51,365 nucleotides of DNA from Saccharicrinis sp. (GTDB lineage Bacteria > Bacteroidota > Bacteroidia > Bacteroidales > Marinilabiliaceae), in NCBI GenBank assembly GCA_024635555.1, contig JAGXIO010000235.1, positions 1-51,365 on the forward strand. The letters are read 5' to 3'. The position numbers and the translations under genes are program-made. Below, piece by piece: positions 19,349 to 45,600 of the stretch. The notes under the pieces are model-generated. The model had not been told where the DNA came from. It saw only the letters and a list, made by a program, of their open reading frames with translations, and did no database searches. Each line of letters begins with the position of its first letter. The stretch's first letter is position 1.

Positions 19349-21253
19349 TTAATTGCTCATTGTTTTGAGTGGTATGGTAAATTGCACTCGCGTGCCGCAT
19401 GTGCCATACTGGCTTCTATCGTGAACTTTCAAATCTATACTTGAGCCTGATTTTCCGAAGTTAATCAGCTTGAGTCTTTCGGCAGTTATTTTAAGTGCCA
19501 AAGATTTATGTTTTTTGGTTATCTCACTGTCTTCTTCCACTCCCTCATCTTTCCTCTTCTTTGATATTCCTATTCCGTTATCCTCGATGATATAAATCAA
19601 TTTATTGTCATTTTTTTCAAACCTAACGCTAATATGCCCATCATCCTTTTTACTTAACTCACCATGTTCAAACGAGTTTTCGATAAAGGGTTGTGCCAGC
19701 ATAGGCGGAATCATTATTTTGTTATCACTGAGTTCCTTGTCTATAATAATTTCATAGCTTACCTTGTCGCCAAACCGCTTGTTCTGTAATTTAATATAAT
19801 ACTCTAATATCTCGCGTTCTCGGTCTAAGGTAATAAACTCTTCTTGCGAATACTGAAGAACCAAGCGCATTAAGCCAGCGAAATCCGCTAAAAAATCAAC
19901 AGCATCCATCACTTTATTTTCTAAAATATAATACTGGATGGTGGATAAAGAGTTGAAAATAAAATGTGGGTTCATCTGCGTTCGCAATACTTTTTGTTCC
20001 AAACTGAGTACCCGATGATTCTCCTTCATGCGGCGGTCTCGCAGATATAACAACATAAAAACTCCTGTACATATCACCAGAAAAGCACCCAATAGGAAGA
20101 AAATTAAGTATAAGCGATTTCTAGCTTTCAACTCTGCCACTTCATTCTGGCTCTTTTGAAATTTAAATCGGTTCTCAAGTTCCAGTATTTTATCCAACTG
20201 GTTCATCGTATAAATACTATCCTTTATAAGGTTATATTCTTCATAAACTCGCAAGGCATTAATATTATCACCTATTTCTTTATATGCTGTGGATAAACTT
20301 AGTAAATTATCGCGCTGTATGTCCAAAAGACCCACCTCTTGGTTTATCGATTCACAAATTTGATACATCTCAACTGCTTGGTTACGCTGCCCCATTGCTG
20401 CATATAAATCGCCAAGACCAGTGTAGGCATTTATCAAACCACTCTTTTTGTCTAACGATTTAAAAATGGATATGGCTGAGTTAAAGAAATCAAAGGCCTT
20501 TTCGTAATTTTTTACTTTTGTATGGAAGTATCCGATATTGGTCTGTACAGATGCAATCCGGTTGCTATCGTTAAGTTCGCGATAGGTTTTTAAGGCCTCT
20601 TGGTAGTAGATCCAGCCCTGGTCGTAATCTTCCTGAAATACAAAGGCAACCCCCAGGTTCAGAGCTATATCGGCCACCGAGCGCTTGTCACTCATCTTCC
20701 GGTATATTTCCAATGCTCTTTTATAGTAGGATTGCTGCATTTCGAATTTTTTAGAATTGCCGAAAATTAAGCCCATGTTTTGAAGGGATTTGGCCATTCC
20801 TAGAGAATCATTTAATTGCGTCTCCAACGCAAAGCACTTTTCGTAAAACGATAGCGAAGTACTATAGTTGGCTTTGTAATAGTACATTAGAGCTATATTG
20901 CTGTAGTTACCTGATAAAATTGCACTATCGCTGCTTTGCTCCAAATACGATTGTGCTTGTATGTAGTGTTGCAGTGCTAGGTTGTAGTCTTCACGGTAAT
21001 ATTCTGCATCTCCCAGAATGTAATAAGCTATGCCTTTGTATTTTATCTGGTCATCGTTAGAAAGCGCTAGCATTTGATGGGCAATGCTATCTGCCCTGTC
21101 GGGATTCTCAGACACAATCTGCAAGCCAATCCGTTGCATTTCTTCAAGTTTTTGCTCACCTTCTGTTTTATCAAATGCTGGATTTATATTATTTTCAGCG
21201 ACAGCTGAAACTAGGTTCAGAAGACAAAATGCAAGGTATAGTCGATAAAACAT
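19349..21253 (-). CDS. TPR-containing LytS-type sensor histidine kinase
   Basis: A 634-residue exported sensor. Signal peptide at residues 1-19, then about six or seven tetratricopeptide repeats (about 75-345), a coiled coil, a membrane helix at 381-403 and a cytosolic His_kinase domain with LRTQMNPHFIFNSL (His430) and a HATPase domain with PPMLAQPFIENSFEHG and DNGIGI. This class normally signals to LytTR-type regulators, none of which is near, so it is an orphan here. The periplasmic TPR array suggests that it detects a protein or peptide in the envelope. Normal length for the type. Confidence 0.9.
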   Translation of the reverse strand: MFYRLYLAFCLLNLVSAVAENNINPAFDKTEGEQKLEEMQRIGLQIVSENPDRADSIAHQMLALSNDDQIKYKGIAYYILGDAEYYREDYNLALQHYIQAQSYLEQSSDSAILSGNYSNIALMYYYKANYSTSLSFYEKCFALETQLNDSLGMAKSLQNMGLIFGNSKKFEMQQSYYKRALEIYRKMSDKRSVADIALNLGVAFVFQEDYDQGWIYYQEALKTYRELNDSNRIASVQTNIGYFHTKVKNYEKAFDFFNSAISIFKSLDKKSGLINAYTGLGDLYAAMGQRNQAVEMYQICESINQEVGLLDIQRDNLLSLSTAYKEIGDNINALRVYEEYNLIKDSIYTMNQLDKILELENRFKFQKSQNEVAELKARNRLYLIFFLLGAFLVICTGVFMLLYLRDRRMKENHRVLSLEQKVLRTQMNPHFIFNSLSTIQYYILENKVMDAVDFLADFAGLMRLVLQYSQEEFITLDREREILEYYIKLQNKRFGDKVSYEIIIDKELSDNKIMIPPMLAQPFIENSFEHGELSKKDDGHISVRFEKNDNKLIYIIEDNGIGISKKRKDEGVEEDSEITKKHKSLALKITAERLKLINFGKSGSSIDLKVHDRSQYGTCGTRVQFTIPLKTMSN

Positions 21254-21355: not shown

Positions 21356-21556
21356 TTACTTCTTTTCTTGGCTACACTTTTTTTCGCATTCTGCCTTTTT
21401 CTCTTTAGTGCAATCTGCCTTTTTTTCTTTAGTGCACTCCTTTTTTTCAGCAGATTCCTTTTTTACTGGTTCCTGAACAGTATCCATGGCCATAACAGGT
21501 GATGCGATGGCAAGCATAAACATAAATAAAAATGTAATTGCAATTGACTTCTTCAT
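21356..21556 (-). CDS. small secreted Lys/Glu/Cys-rich protein
   Basis: A 66-residue protein with a clear signal peptide (about residues 1-23, ending VMA). The mature part is nearly all Lys, Glu and Cys, in loosely repeated units: KKECTKEKK, ADCTKEKK, AECEKKCSQEKK. Four cysteines are spaced 8, 8 and 4 residues apart. The function is not recognised; the cysteine spacing could bind metal or form disulfides. It has its own terminator, so it is a real expressed unit of small size. The long A/G-rich coding strand raises some doubt about translation, but the signal peptide is convincing. Confidence 0.7.
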   Translation of the reverse strand: MKKSIAITFLFMFMLAIASPVMAMDTVQEPVKKESAEKKECTKEKKADCTKEKKAECEKKCSQEKK

Positions 21557-21726: not shown

Positions 21727-22503
21727 CTAGTTACGGATAATAAATTTGGCTTTTTCGGGGAGGGCACGGTAAATGGCCTTGGCATCGGTATCGTTGAGCC
21801 ATAGATATAGCACTGGAGCGTATTTTTTTGCAAAAGGATTGTCAAAAGCATGTTTCAGTCGATACTTAAATATATCGCTGCTTTTTTTTATATTCATTGT
21901 GGAATCCGGCTCTAGTAATACACCGTTTATAACTATTAGTAGACCGCTGCTCGATTTAAACACCCAATTTATAGCCTCGGGTTTGGTCAAATCGGTTTTT
22001 ATCGTTTCCTTTTCCGTGCCAATCGGTGGAGCAATCACTTTTATCAAGGCTCTTTTTGGAATGTTAGAAACAGAAGAATCAATGCGAGCTGGTTTGCCAA
22101 ATATATTTAAATACAACTGCTTGTTAATATTACTGATATATCGTGCGGGTTTTTGAGCCAATATTTTTGCCTGAAACAACACGGTACCCTTCAGATGCAC
22201 CTGTACTAAACTATCGGATAGATTGATGCCTAAACTAAACGAATCGGATTTGGCCAACTGCAACTGCTGTTCTAGCCAAAGCTGCTGTTTTTGCAATGTT
22301 TTACTATCGGAGCTCTTCCAATTATCGTTTATTATTTTGGTACTATCTAATTGGGAATGTATTTCGGTTGAATATTTACCACTTTGTACCATCGCAAAGG
22401 TGAAATTTACAATAAATAACACCAATAAAACAGTCCAAAACAAAACAATTCCGCCAATCCAATATTTGTTTCTCAAAAGGAAATCTATCATGGTATTTTT
22501 CAT
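21727..22503 (-). CDS. membrane-anchored protein of unknown function in the L,D-transpeptidase operon
   Basis: A 258-residue protein with one membrane helix at residues 17-38 and an extracytoplasmic remainder. A Gln/Leu-rich helical stretch (about 67-85) is followed by a probably beta-rich region with no family I recognise. The C-terminal part contains KYAPVLYLWLNDTD and ends in FIIRN. Its start codon overlaps the stop of the upstream L,D-transpeptidase by one base (TAATG), so it is translationally coupled and is the last gene of the envelope operon. A role in cell-wall crosslinking or in holding the transpeptidases is inferred from position only. Confidence 0.82.
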   Translation of the reverse strand: MKNTMIDFLLRNKYWIGGIVLFWTVLLVLFIVNFTFAMVQSGKYSTEIHSQLDSTKIINDNWKSSDSKTLQKQQLWLEQQLQLAKSDSFSLGINLSDSLVQVHLKGTVLFQAKILAQKPARYISNINKQLYLNIFGKPARIDSSVSNIPKRALIKVIAPPIGTEKETIKTDLTKPEAINWVFKSSSGLLIVINGVLLEPDSTMNIKKSSDIFKYRLKHAFDNPFAKKYAPVLYLWLNDTDAKAIYRALPEKAKFIIRN

Positions 22504-23180
22504 TAGTAGATAAAAACTTTGGATCCAATTTGCAGATTTTTGTAAACCACTTCTAAATCTTCGTCGGCCAAACGGATGCAGCCATGTGTAACTGGCATTC
22601 CAAGTAAACGTTGATAGAGTGTGCCATGGATGAGGTAGCCGTCGCCAAGACTCAAGGCGTAATCACCCAATACGCCGCGCTCGAAACGCGAATCGTGATT
22701 GTGCGAAGGCACAGGCAGCCCTTCCTCAATAAATGCCCAATCGGGTTTGCGCCAAATGGGCTTCGTGATTTTGCCTTTCACCGACAGTGCACCTCTCGGA
22801 GTTTCGAAGGTATAGCTTTTTGTACTGTCAACTTCTAGTTGTATAAGGCTTCCGGTGGAGCAAAGCCCTTTCCGAACCAATTGATTGTTTTTAAATAATC
22901 GGTACGTATTTTCAGTGGTGTTGATGATGATGAACGCACCACCGGGCGTAAGGCGATCCAATTTTTGACCAAGGCGGTCAACTTGGTTTTGCAGCTGGGT
23001 TATTTCTTCAGGCTTGTCCGAAGTTTCGGGTAGTTTTGTTTCATCGTTTACCAACGACTTAAATCGAACATCCTGTATTTCGGGTATTAAAAAAGCATTT
23101 GCCGCAACAAAAAGCATCAAACCGGCTATAATCATTAAGCCGGTAAGCCCTGCTTTCAACAAAACAATTTTCCGATTCAT
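22503..23180 (-). CDS. L,D-transpeptidase (YkuD), membrane-anchored
   Basis: A 225-residue protein: one membrane helix (about 10-32), a short coiled segment (58-77) and a YkuD catalytic domain. The active-site motif is THGCIRL with Cys201, preceded by His199, and YLIHGT with His185. Such enzymes form 3-3 crosslinks between diaminopimelate residues or attach proteins to peptidoglycan in the periplasm. Its start overlaps the stop of the preceding transpeptidase gene by 4 bases (ATGA), and its stop overlaps the next start by one base. Two YkuD enzymes encoded back to back suggests different acceptors. Confidence 0.9.
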   Translation of the reverse strand: MNRKIVLLKAGLTGLMIIAGLMLFVAANAFLIPEIQDVRFKSLVNDETKLPETSDKPEEITQLQNQVDRLGQKLDRLTPGGAFIIINTTENTYRLFKNNQLVRKGLCSTGSLIQLEVDSTKSYTFETPRGALSVKGKITKPIWRKPDWAFIEEGLPVPSHNHDSRFERGVLGDYALSLGDGYLIHGTLYQRLLGMPVTHGCIRLADEDLEVVYKNLQIGSKVFIY

Positions 23181-24295
23181 TTTATTGTATTTAAATATTC
23201 TTTAAGCGTTTTGTCACTACCTACAATAAATACAAGTGTTCCAACTTTGCACAAGTCATAAATAACATCCATTTCATTATCCGTCAAAGCCACACATCCT
23301 TCTGTCCAATGCACTCCTTTACCTCCATGACCATGAATTTCTATTAAGCCCCCGATATGCGCACTTTTTGAAATGCTACCGGCTTTTTTCATTCGGTCAA
23401 AACGTGCAACATCCTCGTCGTTAGGGTAGTTTAGCAACATTGCTTTATAATATTTAGTGCTGGAACCCTTCTTTTTATTTGTTATCTTATATATTCCCTG
23501 TGGAGTTGCTCGGTCGCCTTTCATTATTTTGTCGCCCATCCAGTTGGGGCCAAACTCAGCATCAAAAACCTTTATCACTTTGCCGCCCTTTAATACAGCA
23601 CAAGTGGCTTCCATTTTATTCACTAAAACAATAGTTTGCTTTTTCGATAATAAAAAAGCTTGATTAATATTTTTTTCCCAATCGGGGAAATCTTCATAAA
23701 AACTATTTAGCTTAGTCTGTGTAGCTTTTTCGGCTTGGTCAAGCTTATCTGAGGCTTGTTCAATTAGCTTTAGTGCCTTTGGGTAATTTTTGTTGTTGAA
23801 TTCATGTAGCGCCTCTAAATACTGAATTTTTCCTTTGTTATATCGATCAAAATTTACACGGCCAAGGGGCAGGTTTTTGTAACAATTCTCAAATAGATGT
23901 ATCTGACTGGTTGTTTGTTCCAGTTTAAGCTCTAATTGTTTGGTGTATTTATCTTTTTGCGAATCGGCTTCGTTATGGGCATTGATGCTGATATTTAGCG
24001 AAGCTGTTGCCAAATCTTTTACGTGGGAGAAGTCGCGAAAGGCAAAAAAAATGTCATTTTGCAGTGTCCACTCGGCCATTGCCGCATTAAACAATTTCTC
24101 CGCTTCGTGCAATCTCTCGCTGGCATATCTGCTTGCATGAGCACTTTTTGCCCTTGCTATCGATTCACGCGCCTTATCTATTTCTGATGTTGGCGCTTTA
24201 ATGGTAAAATATTTATACGTAGCGTAGGCAATAAATAAGCAACTTAAAATAGCTACTGCAACTAATAAGCGGGGAATAATCCGTTTTGCCCTCAT
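23177..24295 (-). CDS. L,D-transpeptidase (YkuD) with helical N-terminal domain
   Basis: A 372-residue protein with a membrane anchor (about 9-28), a long helical domain (about 36-200) and a C-terminal YkuD domain with IEIHGHGG (His321) and HWTEGCVALTD (Cys334). The YkuD loop is of the HGHGG type, distinct from the second transpeptidase of the operon. Residues 36-75 align without gaps to residues 25-64 of the lipoprotein encoded upstream, sharing about 13 of 40 positions, so the two proteins carry a related helical (DUF4398-like) domain. The gene starts 18 bases after the hairpin at 24313-24333, which can act as an attenuator. Confidence 0.9.
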   Translation of the reverse strand: MRAKRIIPRLLVAVAILSCLFIAYATYKYFTIKAPTSEIDKARESIARAKSAHASRYASERLHEAEKLFNAAMAEWTLQNDIFFAFRDFSHVKDLATASLNISINAHNEADSQKDKYTKQLELKLEQTTSQIHLFENCYKNLPLGRVNFDRYNKGKIQYLEALHEFNNKNYPKALKLIEQASDKLDQAEKATQTKLNSFYEDFPDWEKNINQAFLLSKKQTIVLVNKMEATCAVLKGGKVIKVFDAEFGPNWMGDKIMKGDRATPQGIYKITNKKKGSSTKYYKAMLLNYPNDEDVARFDRMKKAGSISKSAHIGGLIEIHGHGGKGVHWTEGCVALTDNEMDVIYDLCKVGTLVFIVGSDKTLKEYLNTIK

Positions 24296-24304
24296 TTAAC
24301 CGAA

Positions 24305-24333
24305 ATTAAAAAGCCGGGGCTGATAGCCCCGGC
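24305..24333 (-). terminator. terminator/attenuator between lipoprotein and L,D-transpeptidase genes
   Basis: A perfect 8-bp GC-rich stem, GCCGGGGC (24313-24320) with GCCCCGGC (24326-24333), around a 5-base loop. On the minus strand it is followed by five T residues and more T-rich DNA. It lies 35 bases after the lipoprotein stop and 17 bases before the transpeptidase start codon, so read-through would give a much lower level of the transpeptidases than of the lipoprotein. Confidence 0.88.
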
Positions 24334-24368
24334 AAATCTTTGATGTCTAAACTTCGTGATACTGATTA

Positions 24369-24956
24369 TTAGCGCTTATATTTTTCAAGCACAGTTTTCA
24401 ACTCAGTATTGATTTCAGCTGCTTTTTGTTGCACTGCGTTGGCTTTAGTTTGGGCAGCCATTAAATCGTTGCTAGCCAATAAAGCTGGAATTTCGTCCAA
24501 AGATGCATTGATGGCGGCTAGGTCGCTTTTGATGGCTTCGATAGCTTCTTTGCCTTCTTTACCTTTGGGAGCCATTTCAACCATTTTTTGGTTTTCTTCC
24601 ATCATCGCAGCTACAGTAGCTTGAGCCATTGCAACTTCTTCTTTAACTTCTTCTTTCTTCACTTCGGTTTTGCCAACAAGCTCAGAACTTTGTGCAGTAA
24701 TAGCAGCTAGTTTTTCTTTAGCGCTGTCATAGTTTCCGAACATTTTTGAGTTTTGGGCTTCAATATCGGCTGTAACAGCGTTCATTGAATCCTGAAGAGC
24801 CATGAATTCAGCTTCCAAATAAACATCGGCCTGTGCGGCTTTTGCTTGTTCCATTGAAGCATTAGCAGCGTCTATTTCTGCTTGGGGTGCCTTAGCGCAA
24901 CTGCTAAATGCAAGTGTGGCGGTAATTACCGCGAAAAAAACAAAAAACTTCTTCAT
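24369..24956 (-). CDS. helical outer-membrane lipoprotein, Braun-like layout
   Basis: A 195-residue lipoprotein: signal peptide with lipobox AFSSC (Cys20), then an almost wholly helical Ala/Glu/Lys-rich body ending in LEKYKR. No Asp follows the cysteine at +2; the mature start CAKAP is compatible with outer-membrane sorting. The N-terminal helical part (25-64) resembles that of the adjacent L,D-transpeptidase and the DUF4398 type. E. coli Lpp is also a helical lipoprotein; it ends KYRK, and its C-terminal lysine is linked to peptidoglycan by YkuD enzymes. The similar ending here and the neighbouring YkuD genes suggest a tether, but the last residue is Arg, so attachment would need the penultimate Lys or trimming. 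Function is not established. Confidence 0.85.
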   Translation of the reverse strand: MKKFFVFFAVITATLAFSSCAKAPQAEIDAANASMEQAKAAQADVYLEAEFMALQDSMNAVTADIEAQNSKMFGNYDSAKEKLAAITAQSSELVGKTEVKKEEVKEEVAMAQATVAAMMEENQKMVEMAPKGKEGKEAIEAIKSDLAAINASLDEIPALLASNDLMAAQTKANAVQQKAAEINTELKTVLEKYKR

Positions 24957-25101
24957 AATTTTTACTTAATTTGTATTAATTCTCTAAATGGTTTTGATAA
25001 GAGCTTTTCTCATTCATGTATTTTGACGGATTTATTTGGCGAAGTAACACGAGCATCATAAAAAAAAAATATCTTTTTAAGATAAACACATTTATTAAAC
25101 T

Positions 25102-25671
25102 ATGAATAAGCTCATATTTAACACTTTAACTGACGAGGAAATTATTGATAAGATTACCCGTGAGAACAAAAATGAACTCTACGAGCTTATCTATGACCGC
25201 TATTTTGCAAAAGTTAGAGATAAATGTTACAGCTTTTTTAAAAATAAAACCCAAGCCGAAGAGTTTGCGAATGACATTTTGAGCAAGGTGTATGAAAAAC
25301 TGGATGGCTTCAAAAGTAAATCGTCCTTTTCATCATGGCTTTATTCAATATCATATAATGCAATAATCGATTTTCTTCGAAAAAAGAAACAACTGCACTA
25401 TCCTACTTGGAACCAGGAAAATGAATTACCCGAAATTATCGACGAAAGCGATGCCAATATTTCGGAACTCAGTTACGATAATTTGTTACTTATTTTGGAT
25501 CTTATCCACCCCGAAGAAAAAGCATTGCTGCTGATGAAATACCAGGATTCCCTTTCGTTAAAGGACATTGGAGCTAGTTTGGCCATCAGTGATGATGCGG
25601 TTAAAATGCGGCTTAAAAGAGCAAGATCGCGTGTGGTATATTTGTATTTTGAGAAATTCGGAAATGATTGA
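25102..25671 (+). CDS. ECF-type RNA polymerase sigma factor
   Basis: A 189-residue extracytoplasmic-function sigma factor with region 2 at about 22-92 (YELIYDRYFAKVRDKCYSFF..., FSSWLYSISYNAIIDFLRKK) and region 4 at about 128-185 (LIHPEEKALLLMKYQDSLSLKDIGASLAISDDAVKMRLKRAR). It redirects RNA polymerase to a small regulon. It is divergent from the lipoprotein/L,D-transpeptidase cluster across 145 bases, so that cluster is a candidate target. A -7-like TATTTTG lies at 25019-25025. No recognisable membrane anti-sigma gene follows; instead come a 22-codon overlapping frame and a PepSY-like gene. Confidence 0.9.
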   Translation: MNKLIFNTLTDEEIIDKITRENKNELYELIYDRYFAKVRDKCYSFFKNKTQAEEFANDILSKVYEKLDGFKSKSSFSSWLYSISYNAIIDFLRKKKQLHYPTWNQENELPEIIDESDANISELSYDNLLLILDLIHPEEKALLLMKYQDSLSLKDIGASLAISDDAVKMRLKRARSRVVYLYFEKFGND

Positions 25672-25732
25672 GAAAAGTCCGTTACTTATTCTATTGTATT
25701 CGTCAAAACCACGAGGCAGAGAAAATGAATAG
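25664..25732 (+). CDS. possible 22-residue coupling peptide between sigma factor and PepSY-like gene
   Basis: A short frame starts with an ATG inside the last codons of the sigma gene (8-base overlap) and ends with TAG just inside the start of the PepSY-like gene, whose ATG is at 25725. The peptide is MIEKSPLLILLYSSKPRGRE plus two residues. Such chained overlaps are typical of translational coupling. It could instead be the head of a longer protein now out of frame, or chance. Evidence is positional only. Confidence 0.25.
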   Translation: MIEKSPLLILLYSSKPRGRENE

Positions 25733-26174
25733 CTTTGATGGGTTAAAAATTGAATCGAAAACAATTAAGTCTGTGATGAATAAGTTACTAAAAAAAATAT
25801 TTCTGACACCGTTCAAACAAATTCCTGAAAAGGTAAAAGAAACGCTACTTGCGCAATTTCCCGAGGCGCTAAATGTTGAGTGGCATTCCAAAAAGGGGGT
25901 TTATGAAGCCGTTTTCTATGTGAATGAAATCGAATTTATCGCAAAAATTACTGAGGATCTCGGAATTATAGAATATAAGAAAAACTTGAGGCTCGATGAA
26001 CTTCCGTCGCATCTTATTGACGAATGTATTAAGTCAGGTGAAATAATGAATGCCATAGCCATTAACAAAGGAGCTGATGTTTTTTTTGAAGTTATTGTCC
26101 GCGACAAAAAAATGGAGCGCAGCGCCCTACTGCTTGACCAATCGGGTAAGCTTTTGCAAAAAAATCATCTATAA
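25725..26174 (+). CDS. PepSY-like protein without signal peptide
   Basis: A 149-residue protein resembling the PepSY-like (putative beta-lactamase-inhibitor-like) domain of Bacteroidota: ALLAQFPEALNVEWHSKKGVYEAVFYVNEIEFIAKI...GIIEYKKNLRLDELPSHLIDEC is the typical pattern of a Trp-containing first strand, an acidic middle and an LP turn. Family members are usually exported, but no signal peptide is present here, so it is probably cytosolic. It follows the ECF sigma gene after 53 bases and may modulate it, inferred from position only. The frame is open to a TTG at 25668; the ATG at 25725 is preferred because it lies at the end of the short overlapping frame. Confidence 0.75.
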   Translation: MNSFDGLKIESKTIKSVMNKLLKKIFLTPFKQIPEKVKETLLAQFPEALNVEWHSKKGVYEAVFYVNEIEFIAKITEDLGIIEYKKNLRLDELPSHLIDECIKSGEIMNAIAINKGADVFFEVIVRDKKMERSALLLDQSGKLLQKNHL

Positions 26175-26381: not shown

Positions 26382-27620
26382 ATGAAGAATAGGATAGACA
26401 AACAAGCGTTACTTGCAACCATTACATTTTTATTGCTACTAGGCCTTATAGGTATTCAGTTTACATTTTTGATTAGGTCGGCCAAGTTGGAGCAAAAGCA
26501 TTTTAACCACCGTGTTGTGCTTGCCCTAAGCGAATCGCGGAACGAAATTGCCAGAGCGGCCAACGCTTGCACGTACATGCATAATTATGTGTGTGGCAAT
26601 CAGTGTACAAAGGATATGCAAAGGATTAATTCTCAAAAAGCCGACAGTATCATTCGTTCCAATTTGGCTATACATAAAATTGACCTAGATTATACTTTTG
26701 AGTTTGTAAATGTAGATAAAAACCATATTGAGCGAGCTGGTGTGGCTTGTTACGAACAATCGCTAAACGGCTTACTGGCCGAAAATGGCATTAAACTGTT
26801 GATACAATTTCCGGAGCAAAGCCAATTTATATTGGCACAAGCAGGCACCTTATTTTACATTTCTCTAGGGGCTATTATTTTTGTAATGATGTCATTTGTG
26901 TTTACCTCACGTCTTTTCCGAAATCAAAAGCGAATACTTACCAATACAAAAGATTTTATCGACAACATGGTTCACGAGTTTCAAACCCCGGTATCCAATA
27001 TTAAACTCGCATCAAACCTGATAAAAAAGAATATTGATGCCGGTTTTAATAGCGAAAAGATAAATAACTATGCAGGCCTTATCCAAAATGAGAATAGTAA
27101 AATAGAGGATCACATGGGTGATATATTAAGCGTTGCTGCCATGGTTGGAAACCGCTCAGAATACACCGAAGTGAACATGCATCAATTGCTAAATAAATGT
27201 GCAGATACCTACCGCAGTAGCATAGAAAAAGCGGGAGGTAATTTAACCATCGATTTACTGGCTAATCGTTTCATAGTAAAAGGCAAAAGGGAATATTTGT
27301 ACCATGCTCTTTGCAACTTGCTGGATAACGCCATAAAATATACCATAGCAGAACCGGAGATAAAAATATCAACTTATAATAAAAAAAATAAGTTTTATGT
27401 GGTTCTAAGCGACAACGGAATTGGTATCGATCCTAAGAACCATCAAAATATTTTTGAGAAATACTATCGCGTTACCAATGGAAACATCCACGATTTTAAA
27501 GGTTTTGGATTGGGCTTGGATTTTGTTAAATCGGTGGTGTTGCAGCACGGGGCAAGCATACACATAAACAGTCAATTGCATAAGGGAAGCACCTTTACGC
27601 TGGTTTTAAATATCGTATAG
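26382..27620 (+). CDS. membrane sensor histidine kinase with cysteine-rich periplasmic domain
   Basis: A 412-residue kinase with membrane helices at about 10-30 and 155-178 enclosing a 125-residue periplasmic domain, then HisKA with FIDNMVHEFQTPVSN (His198) and HATPase with LDNAIKYT, DNGIGIDP and FGLGLDF. The periplasmic domain contains four cysteines, Cys63, Cys71, Cys75 and Cys123, three of them in a tight cluster, which would suit a metal or redox signal. Its response regulator gene starts 6 bases downstream. The pair lies immediately after the sigma/PepSY pair. Confidence 0.9.
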   Translation: MKNRIDKQALLATITFLLLLGLIGIQFTFLIRSAKLEQKHFNHRVVLALSESRNEIARAANACTYMHNYVCGNQCTKDMQRINSQKADSIIRSNLAIHKIDLDYTFEFVNVDKNHIERAGVACYEQSLNGLLAENGIKLLIQFPEQSQFILAQAGTLFYISLGAIIFVMMSFVFTSRLFRNQKRILTNTKDFIDNMVHEFQTPVSNIKLASNLIKKNIDAGFNSEKINNYAGLIQNENSKIEDHMGDILSVAAMVGNRSEYTEVNMHQLLNKCADTYRSSIEKAGGNLTIDLLANRFIVKGKREYLYHALCNLLDNAIKYTIAEPEIKISTYNKKNKFYVVLSDNGIGIDPKNHQNIFEKYYRVTNGNIHDFKGFGLGLDFVKSVVLQHGASIHINSQLHKGSTFTLVLNIV

Positions 27621-27626
27621 AAATTA

Positions 27627-28313
27627 ATGAATTTAAAAACAAAAATACTTCTACTTGAAGATGATACGGCAATGGGCTTTTTGCTAGTCGATTTTTTGGA
27701 GTCGAATGGTTTTGACGTTAAGCTGTACGCAGATGGAAAACTAGGCATGAATGCTTTTTACCAATATAATTTCGACTTTTGTATTTTGGATGTTATGCTG
27801 CCCAGTCTTGATGGGTTCGCTATTGCACAGCGCATCCGAAAAAACAACAAAACCATTCCTATTATCTTTTTAACCGCCAAGGCACTTAAACACGACAAAA
27901 TAACCGGTTTTGGAATTGGAGTTGACGACTACATTGTTAAACCCTTTGACGAAGACGAGTTGCTGTGCCGCATAAATGCCATATTAAACAGATGCGCCAC
28001 AACTACCGGATCTATGCCCATAATCTCTATTGGGAAGTATAAATACGATGCAGATAACTTATTACTAACCTTTGAGAAGCTACCAAAACGACTGACGCAA
28101 AAAGAAAACGAAGTACTGAAAATGCTAGCATGTTCGAAAAATAACTTGGTAAAACGCGATGATATATTGCTTGCCTTATGGGGTAACAACGATTATTTTA
28201 ATAGTAGAAGTCTGGATGTTTTTATTGCTAAACTCCGAAAATATTTAAAAGCAGACATAGCCGTTCAAATAGAAAATGTTCCGGCGGTGGGTTATGTATT
28301 AAGAGATCAATAA
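27627..28313 (+). CDS. OmpR-family response regulator
   Basis: A 228-residue regulator with a receiver domain (acidic EDD at 11-13, phospho-acceptor Asp55 in FCILDVMLPSLDG, lysine in DDYIVKPF) and a C-terminal winged-helix DNA-binding domain (about 130-228, LTQKENEVLKMLACSKNNLVKRDDIL, then RSLDVFIAKLRKYL). It is the cognate partner of the sensor 6 bases upstream. Targets are unknown; it may control nearby envelope genes. Confidence 0.93.
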   Translation: MNLKTKILLLEDDTAMGFLLVDFLESNGFDVKLYADGKLGMNAFYQYNFDFCILDVMLPSLDGFAIAQRIRKNNKTIPIIFLTAKALKHDKITGFGIGVDDYIVKPFDEDELLCRINAILNRCATTTGSMPIISIGKYKYDADNLLLTFEKLPKRLTQKENEVLKMLACSKNNLVKRDDILLALWGNNDYFNSRSLDVFIAKLRKYLKADIAVQIENVPAVGYVLRDQ

Positions 28314-42626: not shown

Positions 42627-45600
42627 TTATTTCTCGGTAACCTTCTTTTTCTCTTTTCTATCAATTACCGCAATAGCAACAGGTGTTGCGATAAAGAGTG
42701 ATGAGTAGGTACCTACAACAACACCCAGCATCAGTGCAAACACAAATCCTTGTATCACTTCGCCACCGAATAAAAAGATAACCAACAATACAATAAACGT
42801 AGTTAACGATGTATTAATGGTACGGCTGATGGTGGAGTTTAAGGCTGAGTCAACAACGCCAATTTTATCACGTCTTGGATATAACCCTAAAAACTCTCTG
42901 ATACGGTCGAAAACCACCACGGTATCGTTTATGGAGTAACCAATAACTGTAAGTATAGCTGCAATAAAGGCTTGATCTATTTCTAGACTAAAAGGAACAA
43001 TACTATAAAAAATAGAGAATACTCCTAGCACAATAATAACATCATGCAATAAAGCTACTACTGCACCTAATCCATACTCCCAGTTGCGGAAACGGATAAG
43101 GATGTACAAGAAAATTACGATGAGCGAAAAGATGATGGAATAATATGCTTTGGTTTTGATGTCCGTAGCAATAGTAGGTCCCACTTTTTGCGAGCTCATA
43201 CGGTAATTATTGATAAAATCGTCGAAAGTAACATCGGCGCCCAAGGTTGGAACTAAACCGTTGTATAGCTTTTTTTCAATGGTGTTATCCACTTCCGTAC
43301 CGTTTTCTTCAATCATATAGTTGGTGGCTATCCTCACTTGGTTATCACCTCCAAAAGTTTTAACCTCCACATTTGAGCCTTCAAATTCATCCGCCAGTGC
43401 CGATTGAATATCTGATGCCGAAACATTCTCCTCGAAACGCACCACATAGTTACGTCCACCCGAAAAGTCAATACCTAATTTTAACCCGTGCGTGGCCAGT
43501 GAGCCTACGCTAATTAGAATAGCAATACCTGATATAATGAAGAATAATTTTCTTTTTTCCAAAAATTTAATTTTGGTATTCTTCATAAAACCATGCGTAA
43601 GCTTAGTTCCAAATTTAATATCCACCTTTTTGGTCAATAACCATTCAAATATTAAACGGGTGATAAAAATAGCAGTAAAGAAAGAAGTTGCAATACCTAT
43701 CATTAAAGTAGTTGCAAATCCTTTGATTGGACCTGTACCGAACACAAATAAAATGATACCAGTAAGGAACGTAGTTACGTTGGAGTCAATAATTGCCGAG
43801 AAGGCGTTTTTATATCCATCAGATATAGCCAGACGAACACCTTTACCTGCAGCCATCTCTTCACGGATACGCTCATAAATAAGTACGTTGGCATCCACCG
43901 ACATACCTATGGTAAGGACGATACCCGCAATACCCGGCAAGGTAAGCACTGCACCAAACGATGCCAGCACCCCAAGTATAAAAAACATGTTGGCCAATAG
44001 CGCGATGTCGGAAACTGCACCCGCTTTAAAGCCATAAAAGAACATCATATAAACCAGTACTACTATAAATGCCAGCACAAACGAAGATAGTCCGGAGTCT
44101 ACAGCCTCCTGTCCAAGTGAAGGACCAACTACGGTATCTTCAACAATACGTGCAGGAGCAGGCAGTTTACCCGACTTTAATATGTTCGCAAGGTCTTTCG
44201 CTTCCTCAGTGGTAAAGTTACCGGTGATAGAGCTACGTCCTCCTTTAATCTCTGCATTTACCGTGGGGTAGCTATATACATAACTATCTAACACAATAGC
44301 AATACTTTTGCCAATGCTAGCTTTTGTTAAACGAGCCCACACGTTGGCACCCTCGGTGTTCATACCCATGCTAATTTCGTAATCGCCGCGCTGTCCGGTT
44401 TCGGCACGAGCGTTGGTAATTACATCGCCCTCAAGTGGTGGGCGACCATCGTGACTAGTTACTTTGATGGCAATAAGCTCAAAAATTTCGTCTTTGCTCA
44501 TCTTTCCGTCTATTTCGCGTGGTGGTAGTGGCTTTACAGTCCACATAAACCTTACGTTTTTAGGAAACAAGGCACGAACCTGTTCCATTTGCAAGTATCT
44601 GTTAACTTTGGAGGTGTCCTTGGCCAAAGAATATCCTACAAGTGGTCCTGTTTGACGTTGACTAGGATTTAAAACACTAAATAAAGAGTTTTGCGTTTGT
44701 GTGGCGGCTAAAGAATCTACTGCTGTTTCAGTCTCATCCAACTGGCTCAACAAGTCATCTGCCGTATCTTCGTCAGCTTTCACTTCAAGTGAGTCCACCG
44801 TTTCAACTTCTTCAACAGGCTTATCCGTTTTATTCAAAGCTGCTTTGGCATTTTCAATGCTAATTACCTTATTATTGGCAGCAATTAAGTTTTGCACCAA
44901 CTCGCTAAGTTCATAGGTTTCCCAAAACTCCAGACTGGCAGTACCTTGCAATAGCTTACGAACCCTTTGGGGATCCTTAACACCGGGAAGCTCAACCAAA
45001 ACACGTCCGGCTTTTTCTAAGCGTTGGATATTTGGCTGTGTCACTCCAAAACGGTCAATACGTGTGCGCAAAATATTAAAAGCATTGTCGATGGCACTCT
45101 TAGCCTCTTCGCGCACAACTTTTATTACCTCATCATTGGATGTGTTATAATCAATTCTTCCTTTAAGCTCAACCGTATTAAAGATGGCGGCCAAACGGGC
45201 TTCGCTATCCAACTCTTTAAAAGAATCGTAAAATAAGGAGATAAAATTTTCGGAAGATGTTTTCTCTTTTTCTTCGGCTAATTGTAATGCCTTGTTAAAT
45301 GTAGGATCCGAATTGTAATTGGAAAGGGCTTTGAGTATGTCGGCCACTCGAACTTCGAGGATAAGGTTCATACCCCCTTTAAGGTCAAGACCAAAGTTAA
45401 TTTCCTTTTCCTTACACTCCCTGTAAGTATATTTTTTTAATCCCAAGAAATTGTAAATCGGCTCATTGGCTACTGAATCCAAATAGTTAGTCTCTATTTG
45501 CTGATTACCCATTGCAATTTCCTTCGCCTTATTTTCTTCCTGTCTGGTTTGATAGGTAAACATCAACTGATATAAACTTACCAAGGCCAGAAGAATGGCA

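Follow-up and report, generated by a model that had tools for sequence, protein, structure and literature searches.

The question raised by this locus is whether four neighbouring genes in the window, the 51,365-nucleotide stretch of Saccharicrinis DNA analysed here, encode a link between the outer membrane and the cell wall. A first-pass annotation had described a lipoprotein ending LEKYKR, two L,D-transpeptidases and a fourth protein with overlapping starts, and had proposed that they form a Braun-type tether. The open reading frames were all found as described, on the minus strand: the lipoprotein gene (24369 to 24956; 195 amino acids), ldtA (23177 to 24295; 372 amino acids), ldtB (22503 to 23180; 225 amino acids), and orfC (21727 to 22503; 258 amino acids). 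The starts do overlap for LdtA/LdtB (4 nucleotides) and LdtB/OrfC (1 nucleotide), the only overlaps among the four genes, but the lipoprotein and LdtA genes are separated by a gap of 73 nucleotides. OrfC has a fold that was not recognised, and its N terminus, like that of LdtB, is hydrophobic as judged by eye. LdtA and LdtB are the sole YkuD matches in the genome at an E-value of 0.001 or below (Pfam PF03734; 6.9e-15 and 2.6e-20, respectively).

The two YkuD proteins differ at the active site. LdtB, with a YkuD L,D-transpeptidase domain, contains the sequence H199-G-C201-I-R203, including the arginine two residues after the cysteine, and HGC[IV]R is present in all 51 readable copies, with 3 more cut by contig ends. 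Its profile detected Escherichia coli LdtB, one of the enzymes that attach Lpp, with an E-value of 2.4e-14, whereas that for DpaA was only 5.4. The cassette LdtB thus carries the L,D-transpeptidase signature and is predicted to have this activity. LdtA consists of an N-terminal hydrophobic helix, a helical rod, and a YkuD domain of the YafK/DpaA type, in which the catalytic residue is C334, K256 corresponds to K83 of DpaA, and A336 replaces the arginine. Among 56 LdtA sequences, the cysteine is conserved in 55, alanine at Cys+2 in 56, Lys83 in 56, and Tyr109 in 54, and the motif GC[VIL]A is found in 55. Alanine at Cys+2 is described for DpaA-like proteins in the part of PMC8263019 covered, and the LdtA profile gave E-values of 4.8e-12 for DpaA and 6.2e-6 for E. 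coli LdtB. LdtA shares with the YafK family, Csd6, and Pgp2 a YkuD fold without arginine after the catalytic cysteine and with a lysine in the mDAP pocket, features given for YafK-family proteins and LD-carboxypeptidases in the sections of PMC10653827 drawn on here. The cleft residues that the same sections treat as specific to DpaA occur at lower frequency (Gln86, 10/56; Arg108, 9/56) or are mostly replaced by Gly and Leu (Lys130 and Tyr131), and LdtA scored 30 bits against the NCBIfam YafK model, whose cut-off is 365. Because it combines GC[VIL]A with the DpaA pocket lysine, LdtA is by its active-site signature of the hydrolase type, either a DpaA-like amidase or an LD-carboxypeptidase. The earlier assignment of two transpeptidases therefore fits LdtB and is rejected for LdtA, which has alanine in place of arginine at Cys+2 in 56 of 56 sequences. 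LdtA is set apart from the YafK family, Csd6, and Pgp2 by its additional anchored rod and by a gene that adjoins that of its presumed substrate. Profile comparison of the lipoprotein with the LdtA rod (hhalign; probability 99, E-value 4.3e-18, 182 columns) identifies the rod, or spacer, as a paralogue of the lipoprotein. The AlphaFold2 model of LdtA was poor, with a pLDDT of 60 and its least confident part in the catalytic domain, and was left out of fold searches.

The lipoprotein is predicted from its lipobox to be lipidated at Cys20, a residue present in all 57 aligned orthologues, which leaves a mature protein of about 176 residues. Bacteroidota surface-export signals take the form of an acidic cluster after the lipoprotein cysteine, and no cluster resembling them was seen at that position. 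An AlphaFold2 model built from an alignment of 2 sequences was helical, as had been claimed, with a pLDDT of 83 (residues 1 to 20 below 50). The lipoprotein had no match to Pfam LPP (PF04728) up to an E-value of 1, and a sequence search of the PDB found no relative at a credible E-value (best, 0.19). The top Foldseek match to the model was the helical N-terminal domain of Borrelia BB0323 (PDB 6rjx and 9q9v; probability 0.99), which is treated as a lead only because of its E-values of 0.2 to 0.26 and TM-scores of 0.42 to 0.53. At the C terminus, the basic tail K192-Y-K-R195 (24372 to 24383, minus strand) ends in a residue that is not conserved. The first-pass annotation had pointed to the final arginine in the window, which is confirmed, as its main weakness and had looked to a conserved lysine near the C terminus as a test; for the family as a whole this test fails, because the sequence ends in lysine in 26 of 48 orthologues from the window's own class and in 0 of 10 from the second class. 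A lysine lies among the final five residues in 46 of the 48, so a lysine-rich tail is usual in the own class and may there provide a C-terminal attachment site, whereas the 10 second-class orthologues have no lysine in this stretch. Lacking both an LPP match and a conserved C-terminal lysine, the protein is rejected as a member of the Lpp family; of the Braun-type description, the lipobox and helical rod survive, but the family match, the length, and the C-terminal lysine do not.

A second candidate for attachment or docking is the motif A129-P-K-G-K133-E-G135 (24552 to 24572, minus strand). P-x-G-K is kept in 54 of the 57 aligned orthologues, and K133 is the sole lysine common to all 54. The motif is broken in genomes G551, G547, and G896, in which a whole-genome search found no LdtB; LdtB went undetected in four genomes altogether, and P-x-G-K is thus broken in three of these four. 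The fourth, G942, keeps the motif, and its contig ends 73 bases after LdtA. In G551, alanine replaces the catalytic cysteine of LdtA, and no full-length LdtA was found in G547 or G896 (genome completeness, 77% and 82%). Locus L176 keeps a lysine in the K133 column. The lipoproteins of G551, G547, and G896 are divergent, and the loss spans a block of residues 125 to 142 together with K192 and K22, which makes the pattern too weak to establish K133 as the site. As the attachment lysine, K133 is somewhat favoured, with the Lys-rich C terminus second. If the helices packed in an up-down-up arrangement, the K133 loop would lie near the lipid end and the C terminus near the wall; a mutual-information test of helix packing with 57 sequences gave no clear peak.

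The best explanation, to which we give a probability of roughly 0.55, is that the cluster encodes a covalent and reversible tether between the outer membrane and peptidoglycan that would work like Lpp with LdtABC and DpaA, using a lipoprotein outside the Lpp family. LdtB would join the side chain of a lipoprotein lysine to the meso-diaminopimelate of a stem peptide, and LdtA would cut the bond between lipoprotein and peptidoglycan while held near the wall by its inner-membrane-anchored rod; a dedicated ECF-type sigma factor would switch the cluster. The features computed for this model are the order and co-occurrence of the genes, the signatures of the catalytic sites, the paralogy of lipoprotein and rod, linkage to the sigma gene, the pattern of promoter sites, and the terminator-like hairpin, and from them we infer the location of the proteins, the covalent bond, the direction of each enzyme, and the lysine used. 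The tether proposed at first pass is supported by genes that strictly occur together in a fixed order, by indications that the lipoprotein is expressed in excess, and by one predicted attaching and one predicted hydrolytic enzyme, whereas its Braun-type detail is weakened. A narrower version, in which a sigma-switched tether of a Bacteroidota type is linked by LdtB through the internal K133 (AP[KR]GK[DE]G) and LdtA sits on an inner-membrane rod sharing an ancestor with its substrate, is tentative and on balance doubtful. The paralogous rods may also pair, in which case tether and cutter may jointly set the width of the periplasm.

The Lpp system of E. coli (Lpp with LdtA/B/C and DpaA) likewise comprises a lipoprotein, transpeptidases of the attaching family, and a hydrolase of the YafK/DpaA type. 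The cassette differs in its lipoprotein, which is about three times longer, without an LPP match, and without a conserved C-terminal lysine, in the adjacency of its genes, which a sigma gene often accompanies, and in a hydrolase that, unlike DpaA, has a rod that is a paralogue of the lipoprotein. A precedent for an internal-lysine tether, likened here by description only, is LimB of Coxiella burnetii, a lipoprotein linked to peptidoglycan via an internal lysine according to the parts of PMC12274547 and PMC8263019 covered. Its attaching enzyme is given as unknown in the covered part of PMC11841132, and no operon like the cassette is described in the covered parts of PMC11841132 and PMC12274547.

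Divergent from the operon is a gene for an ECF-type sigma factor (25102 to 25671, plus strand), with homologues in 25 other loci, so that such a gene lies upstream in 26 of the 47 own-class loci. The protein has sigma-70 regions 2 and 4 (Pfam PF04542, 4.1e-12, and PF08281, 5.2e-8, both over their cut-offs; PF07638 was under its cut-off). A predicted ECF-type promoter, GTTAC-N15-CGTC with A as the next base (25025 to 25048, minus strand), reads towards the lipoprotein operon, and a second GTTAC-N15-CGTC site (25681 to 25704, plus strand) precedes a small open reading frame 3' of the sigma gene (25725 to 26174, plus strand). The small protein has no Pfam match up to an E-value of 0.01, and homologues of it accompany the sigma gene at 24 of the 26 sigma-linked loci. 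The pattern, which we take to resemble ECF promoters, occurs with a spacer of 14 to 16 in 22 of the 26 sigma-linked loci; the longer form GTTAC-N15-CGTCT occurs in 14 of 25 sigma-linked versus 2 of 21 unlinked own-class upstream regions. The gap between the lipoprotein gene and ldtA contains a terminator-like hairpin (24308 to 24333, minus strand). Such a hairpin is present at 34 of the 47 own-class loci, where shuffled sequence would be expected to give 0.5. The lipoprotein gene has the highest per-codon bias among 39 window genes picked from the list of open reading frames (z, 3.2); this is a background-corrected score, used in place of a codon-adaptation index because the ribosomal protein L2 family had no match in the assembly. 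Hairpin and codon bias together suggest that the lipoprotein is made in excess. Such an excess would be unlike a stoichiometric activator and argues against the reading that makes the lipoprotein an Lpo-like scaffold on the outer membrane rather than a substrate, with a rod that docks LdtB, LdtA, or both and places 3-3 cross-linking and LD-trimming near that membrane. That reading, though unlikely, accounts for the C-terminal lysine not being conserved, finds in the paralogy of lipoprotein and LdtA rod a sign of direct contact, and fits the loss of residues 125 to 142 along with LdtB, which would be expected of a docking site no less than of a substrate site.

The distribution of the genes bears on the remaining alternatives. 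Across 58 lipoprotein orthologues (48 own-class and 10 second-class), the lipoprotein, LdtA, and LdtB occur together in the same order and on one strand at 54 loci, and all four genes are present at 51; OrfC was scored by profile matches of at least 25 bits, which in the second class reached only 30 to 80 bits. Three separate searches of a phylum sample of 395 genomes returned the identical 9 genomes: one for the lipoprotein and one for LdtA, both at full length, and one for LdtB at E-values below 1e-80 (next LdtB match, 2.1e-6). Among 61 genomes of relatives, the lipoprotein and LdtA likewise occur in an identical 9; a lipoprotein of this kind was not found in the other 52 genomes searched, and within the genus 7 of the 8 further members lack it, a scarcity that counts against the tether reading. 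This company of lipoprotein and LdtB, and the presence of K133 wherever LdtB is present, would be left unexplained if the cluster served stress-induced wall remodelling, with LdtB forming 3-3 cross-links, LdtA trimming tetrapeptides as a Csd6/Pgp2-like LD-carboxypeptidase, and the lipoprotein acting non-covalently in structure or sensing. The remodelling reading is a shade less probable than the scaffold and draws on the adjoining ECF-type sigma gene, which suits a stress module, on the resemblance of LdtB to LdtE, a presumed cross-linker, and on the best PDB sequence matches of LdtA, which are 4xzz, presumably Csd6, and Pgp2, both ranking above DpaA (8ikr) in phmmer. Genes for lipoproteins and for YkuD proteins are widespread among bacteria, but a chance neighbourhood of unrelated envelope genes is refuted by these co-occurrence counts and by an order and strand never broken across 58 loci from two classes of Bacteroidota. 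The four genes are real, correctly placed, and more than a chance cluster.

In the portion of the literature covered, Proteobacteria are the only group for which L,D-transpeptidases are named as makers of protein-peptidoglycan tethers. If the tether reading is true, some Bacteroidota would own such a tether, with the enzymes that attach and detach it encoded beside it, often together with a sigma factor. DpaA-like proteins also occur in bacteria without Lpp, where the covered part of PMC8263019 leaves their substrate open, and the cassette would offer a concrete guess at that substrate. It would also provide a compact system for testing what the tying and untying of the outer membrane is for, and a way of approaching the stiffness of the envelope and the release of vesicles in Bacteroidota.

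The cluster comprises four genes on the minus strand, transcribed in the order lipoprotein (24369-24956; 195 residues), LdtA (23177-24295), LdtB (22503-23180), and orfC (21727-22503); the orfC product has a hydrophobic N terminus and was assigned to no known family or fold. Rederiving the open reading frames confirmed the coordinates of the first-pass annotation; the overlapping starts that it described hold for LdtA/LdtB (4 nt) and LdtB/orfC (1 nt) but not for the lipoprotein, which lies 73 nt from LdtA. At E <= 0.001, the genome has no YkuD match other than LdtA, which is 83% identical to that of a Saccharicrinis MAG, and LdtB. A large YkuD protein (frames of ~420 to 625 aa) found in many relatives (genomes G001, G004, G007, G009, G013, G015, and others) is absent from this genome. 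On the 3' side of the operon, positions 21356-21556 (minus) encode a 66-residue Lys/Glu/Cys-rich protein with a signal-like N terminus and a homologue in only one of the loci scanned (L028). A kinase-regulator pair (26382-28313, plus) and a TPR histidine kinase (19349-21253, minus) flank the cluster and are mostly absent from the relatives' stretches.

The cassette is a real, conserved system. In a 61-genome search, the lipoprotein and full-length LdtA were found in an identical set of nine genomes; any LdtA match was seen in 12 genomes, in 3 of which it was weak and confined to the catalytic domain. Three separate searches of a 395-genome sample of the phylum, with weaker partial matches excluded, placed full-length lipoprotein, full-length LdtA, and LdtB (E < 1e-80) in the same nine genomes, the next LdtB match being at 2.1e-6; any match, partial ones and the nine included, was found in 105 genomes for LdtA, 19 for the lipoprotein, and 39 for LdtB. 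The lipoprotein occurs in 42 of 393 genomes of the same order, and in a second, high-GC class, which we take to be Rhodothermia, 22 of 244 genomes have some match (full-length or nearly so in 10); because many genomes are related, these counts are not independent events. The locus set (57 relatives plus the window, from 58 genomes, with genes called by profile scan) is defined by the lipoprotein, which is therefore in all 58 loci (its copy in L177 is cut at the start). LdtA is present in 56, LdtB in 54, and orfC in 51, with no breach of order or strand among the genes present. The scan did not find LdtA in loci L139 and L176 or LdtB in L138, L139, L176, and L158, where the contig ends 73 bases past LdtA. 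Matches to orfC in the second class are weak (30 to 80 bits), seven loci having one at the same position. Frames of 125 to 206 aa in L081 to L086, L100, and L101 (the class of genome G063) align, at E 7e-8 to 3e-6, with roughly the N-terminal 60% of the lipoprotein profile; six genomes of this group fall within the 395-genome sample, all without an LdtA or LdtB match.

The first-pass annotation had counted two L,D-transpeptidases. LdtB fits this assignment by sequence: HGC[IV]R is present in 51 of the 51 copies reaching that region (in three more the contig stops short of it), and the LdtB profile matches E. coli LdtB (E 2.4e-14). LdtA instead carries GC[VIL]A, without Arg at Cys+2, in 55 of 56 copies. 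At Cys+2, the Arg of transpeptidases is replaced by Ala or Asn in most DpaA-like proteins (available part of PMC8263019). Equivalents of the DpaA pocket lysine K83 and of Y109 are found in 56 and 54 of the 56 copies, respectively, whereas four cleft residues named as DpaA specific (PMC10653827, available part) are not conserved. With LdtA as the phmmer query against solved structures, 4xzz and Pgp2 ranked above 8ikr. The 4xzz entry, listed only as a secreted protein, is presumably Csd6. Since 8ikr is DpaA (PMC13400389, available part), this ranking counts against a firm DpaA label. From the motif, the K83 and Y109 equivalents, and the ranking, LdtA is predicted to be of the hydrolase type, either a detaching amidase or a carboxypeptidase. 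The exception to the motif is L138, in genome G551 (97% complete), where the catalytic Cys is Ala and both LdtB and K133, the lysine of the lipoprotein P-x-G-K motif, are missing; part of the system may have been lost naturally in this genome.

The LdtA spacer is, by profile comparison, a relative of the lipoprotein: in hhalign, the alignment of lipoproteins matched residues 3-194 of LdtA over 182 columns (probability 99, E 4.3e-18). In 24 of the 42 genomes of the same order, the lipoprotein profile also matches an adjacent second frame (370 to 438 aa) agreeing with LdtA in position and size. Predicted helices of the two proteins correspond in order, the LdtA model being weak.

Conservation of a C-terminal Lys across orthologues, proposed earlier as a check, was not borne out: of 48 lipoproteins of the window's class, 26 end in Lys, 12 in Arg, and 10 in another residue, and 0 of 10 from the second class end in Lys. 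A Lys within the last five residues is conserved in the former (46/48) but not in the latter (0/10). The closest relative (93% identity) ends in YKRK and the window protein in YKR. In the alignment of 57 lipoproteins (without L177), K133 is present within P-x-G-K in 54 and is the sole lysine common to all 54; the motif is missing in L138, L139, and L176. Whole-genome searches of eight genomes did not find LdtB in those of the same three loci; a fourth genome without it, G942, has a cut contig and keeps the motif. Of 18 well-conserved columns in residues 1-107, these three lipoproteins all keep 15, two columns are kept in two, and K22, near the lipobox Cys20, is kept in none, as is K192 in the C-terminal tail; of seven such columns in residues 125-142, six are kept in one of the three and one in two. 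Degradation of this block in genomes without a detected LdtB ties it, at the sequence level, to LdtB as a putative substrate or docking site, a link weakened by the divergence of these sequences, the incompleteness of two of the genomes, and the Lys that L176 still has in the K133 column. Depending on rod topology, K133 may lie near the membrane.

An ECF-type sigma gene (25102-25671, plus; Pfam sigma-70 regions 2 and 4) is divergent from the operon. With L177 left out, 26 of 47 loci of the window's class, this one included, have a divergent gene of this type upstream, against 0 of 10 second-class loci at the same threshold. The gap to the operon reaches ~1 kb in L151 and ~450 nt in L166; L072 has a weak sigma homologue (3.4e-8). 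With near-identical loci removed, GTTAC-N15-CGTCT precedes the lipoprotein in 14 of 25 sigma-linked versus 2 of 21 unlinked loci of this class; the best such motif pair in 20 shuffles reached 4. The looser pattern GTTAC-N14-16-CGTC predicts sites at 25025-25048, toward the lipoprotein operon (next base A, not T), and at 25681-25704 (plus), toward the open reading frame after the sigma gene; the pattern also matches at 44217, probably fortuitously (0.46 matches expected in the window). Among the 26 sigma-linked loci, 15 have two or more matches, 7 have one, and 4 have none. The small protein at 25725-26174 (plus), which follows the 25681-25704 site and has a homologue in 24 of the 26, may be a partner of the sigma factor or a further output of it.

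In 34 of 47 loci of the window's class, the gap between the lipoprotein and LdtA contains a GC-rich hairpin with a T-run (0.5 expected from mononucleotide shuffles); across all loci scanned, the count is 35 of 56. Among 39 window genes, the lipoprotein gene ranks first in per-codon bias (excess 0.074, z 3.2); a larger z (4.8) is reached by one gene that is much longer. Both features are suggestive signs of excess lipoprotein.

A covalent tether between the outer membrane and the wall is the best single explanation, with a probability of roughly 55%. An Lpo-like scaffold role for the lipoprotein is a less likely alternative, and a module for cross-linking and trimming a slightly less likely one still. 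The Braun-type tether proposed in the first-pass annotation survives in outline, the conserved cassette fitting a tether with a step that would tie and another that would untie it, but without a C-terminal Lys conserved across the family and with one transpeptidase-like enzyme instead of two. In the open-licence literature, at the level of titles and abstract openings, searches found no paper describing either this cluster or covalent tethering in Bacteroidota. DpaA-like genes occur in diderm bacteria without Lpp, Bacteroidetes included, with the substrate left open (PMC8263019, available part), and Lpp, LimB, OutB, and outer membrane barrels are precedents for tether chemistry (available parts of PMC12274547, PMC12729407, and PMC11841132).
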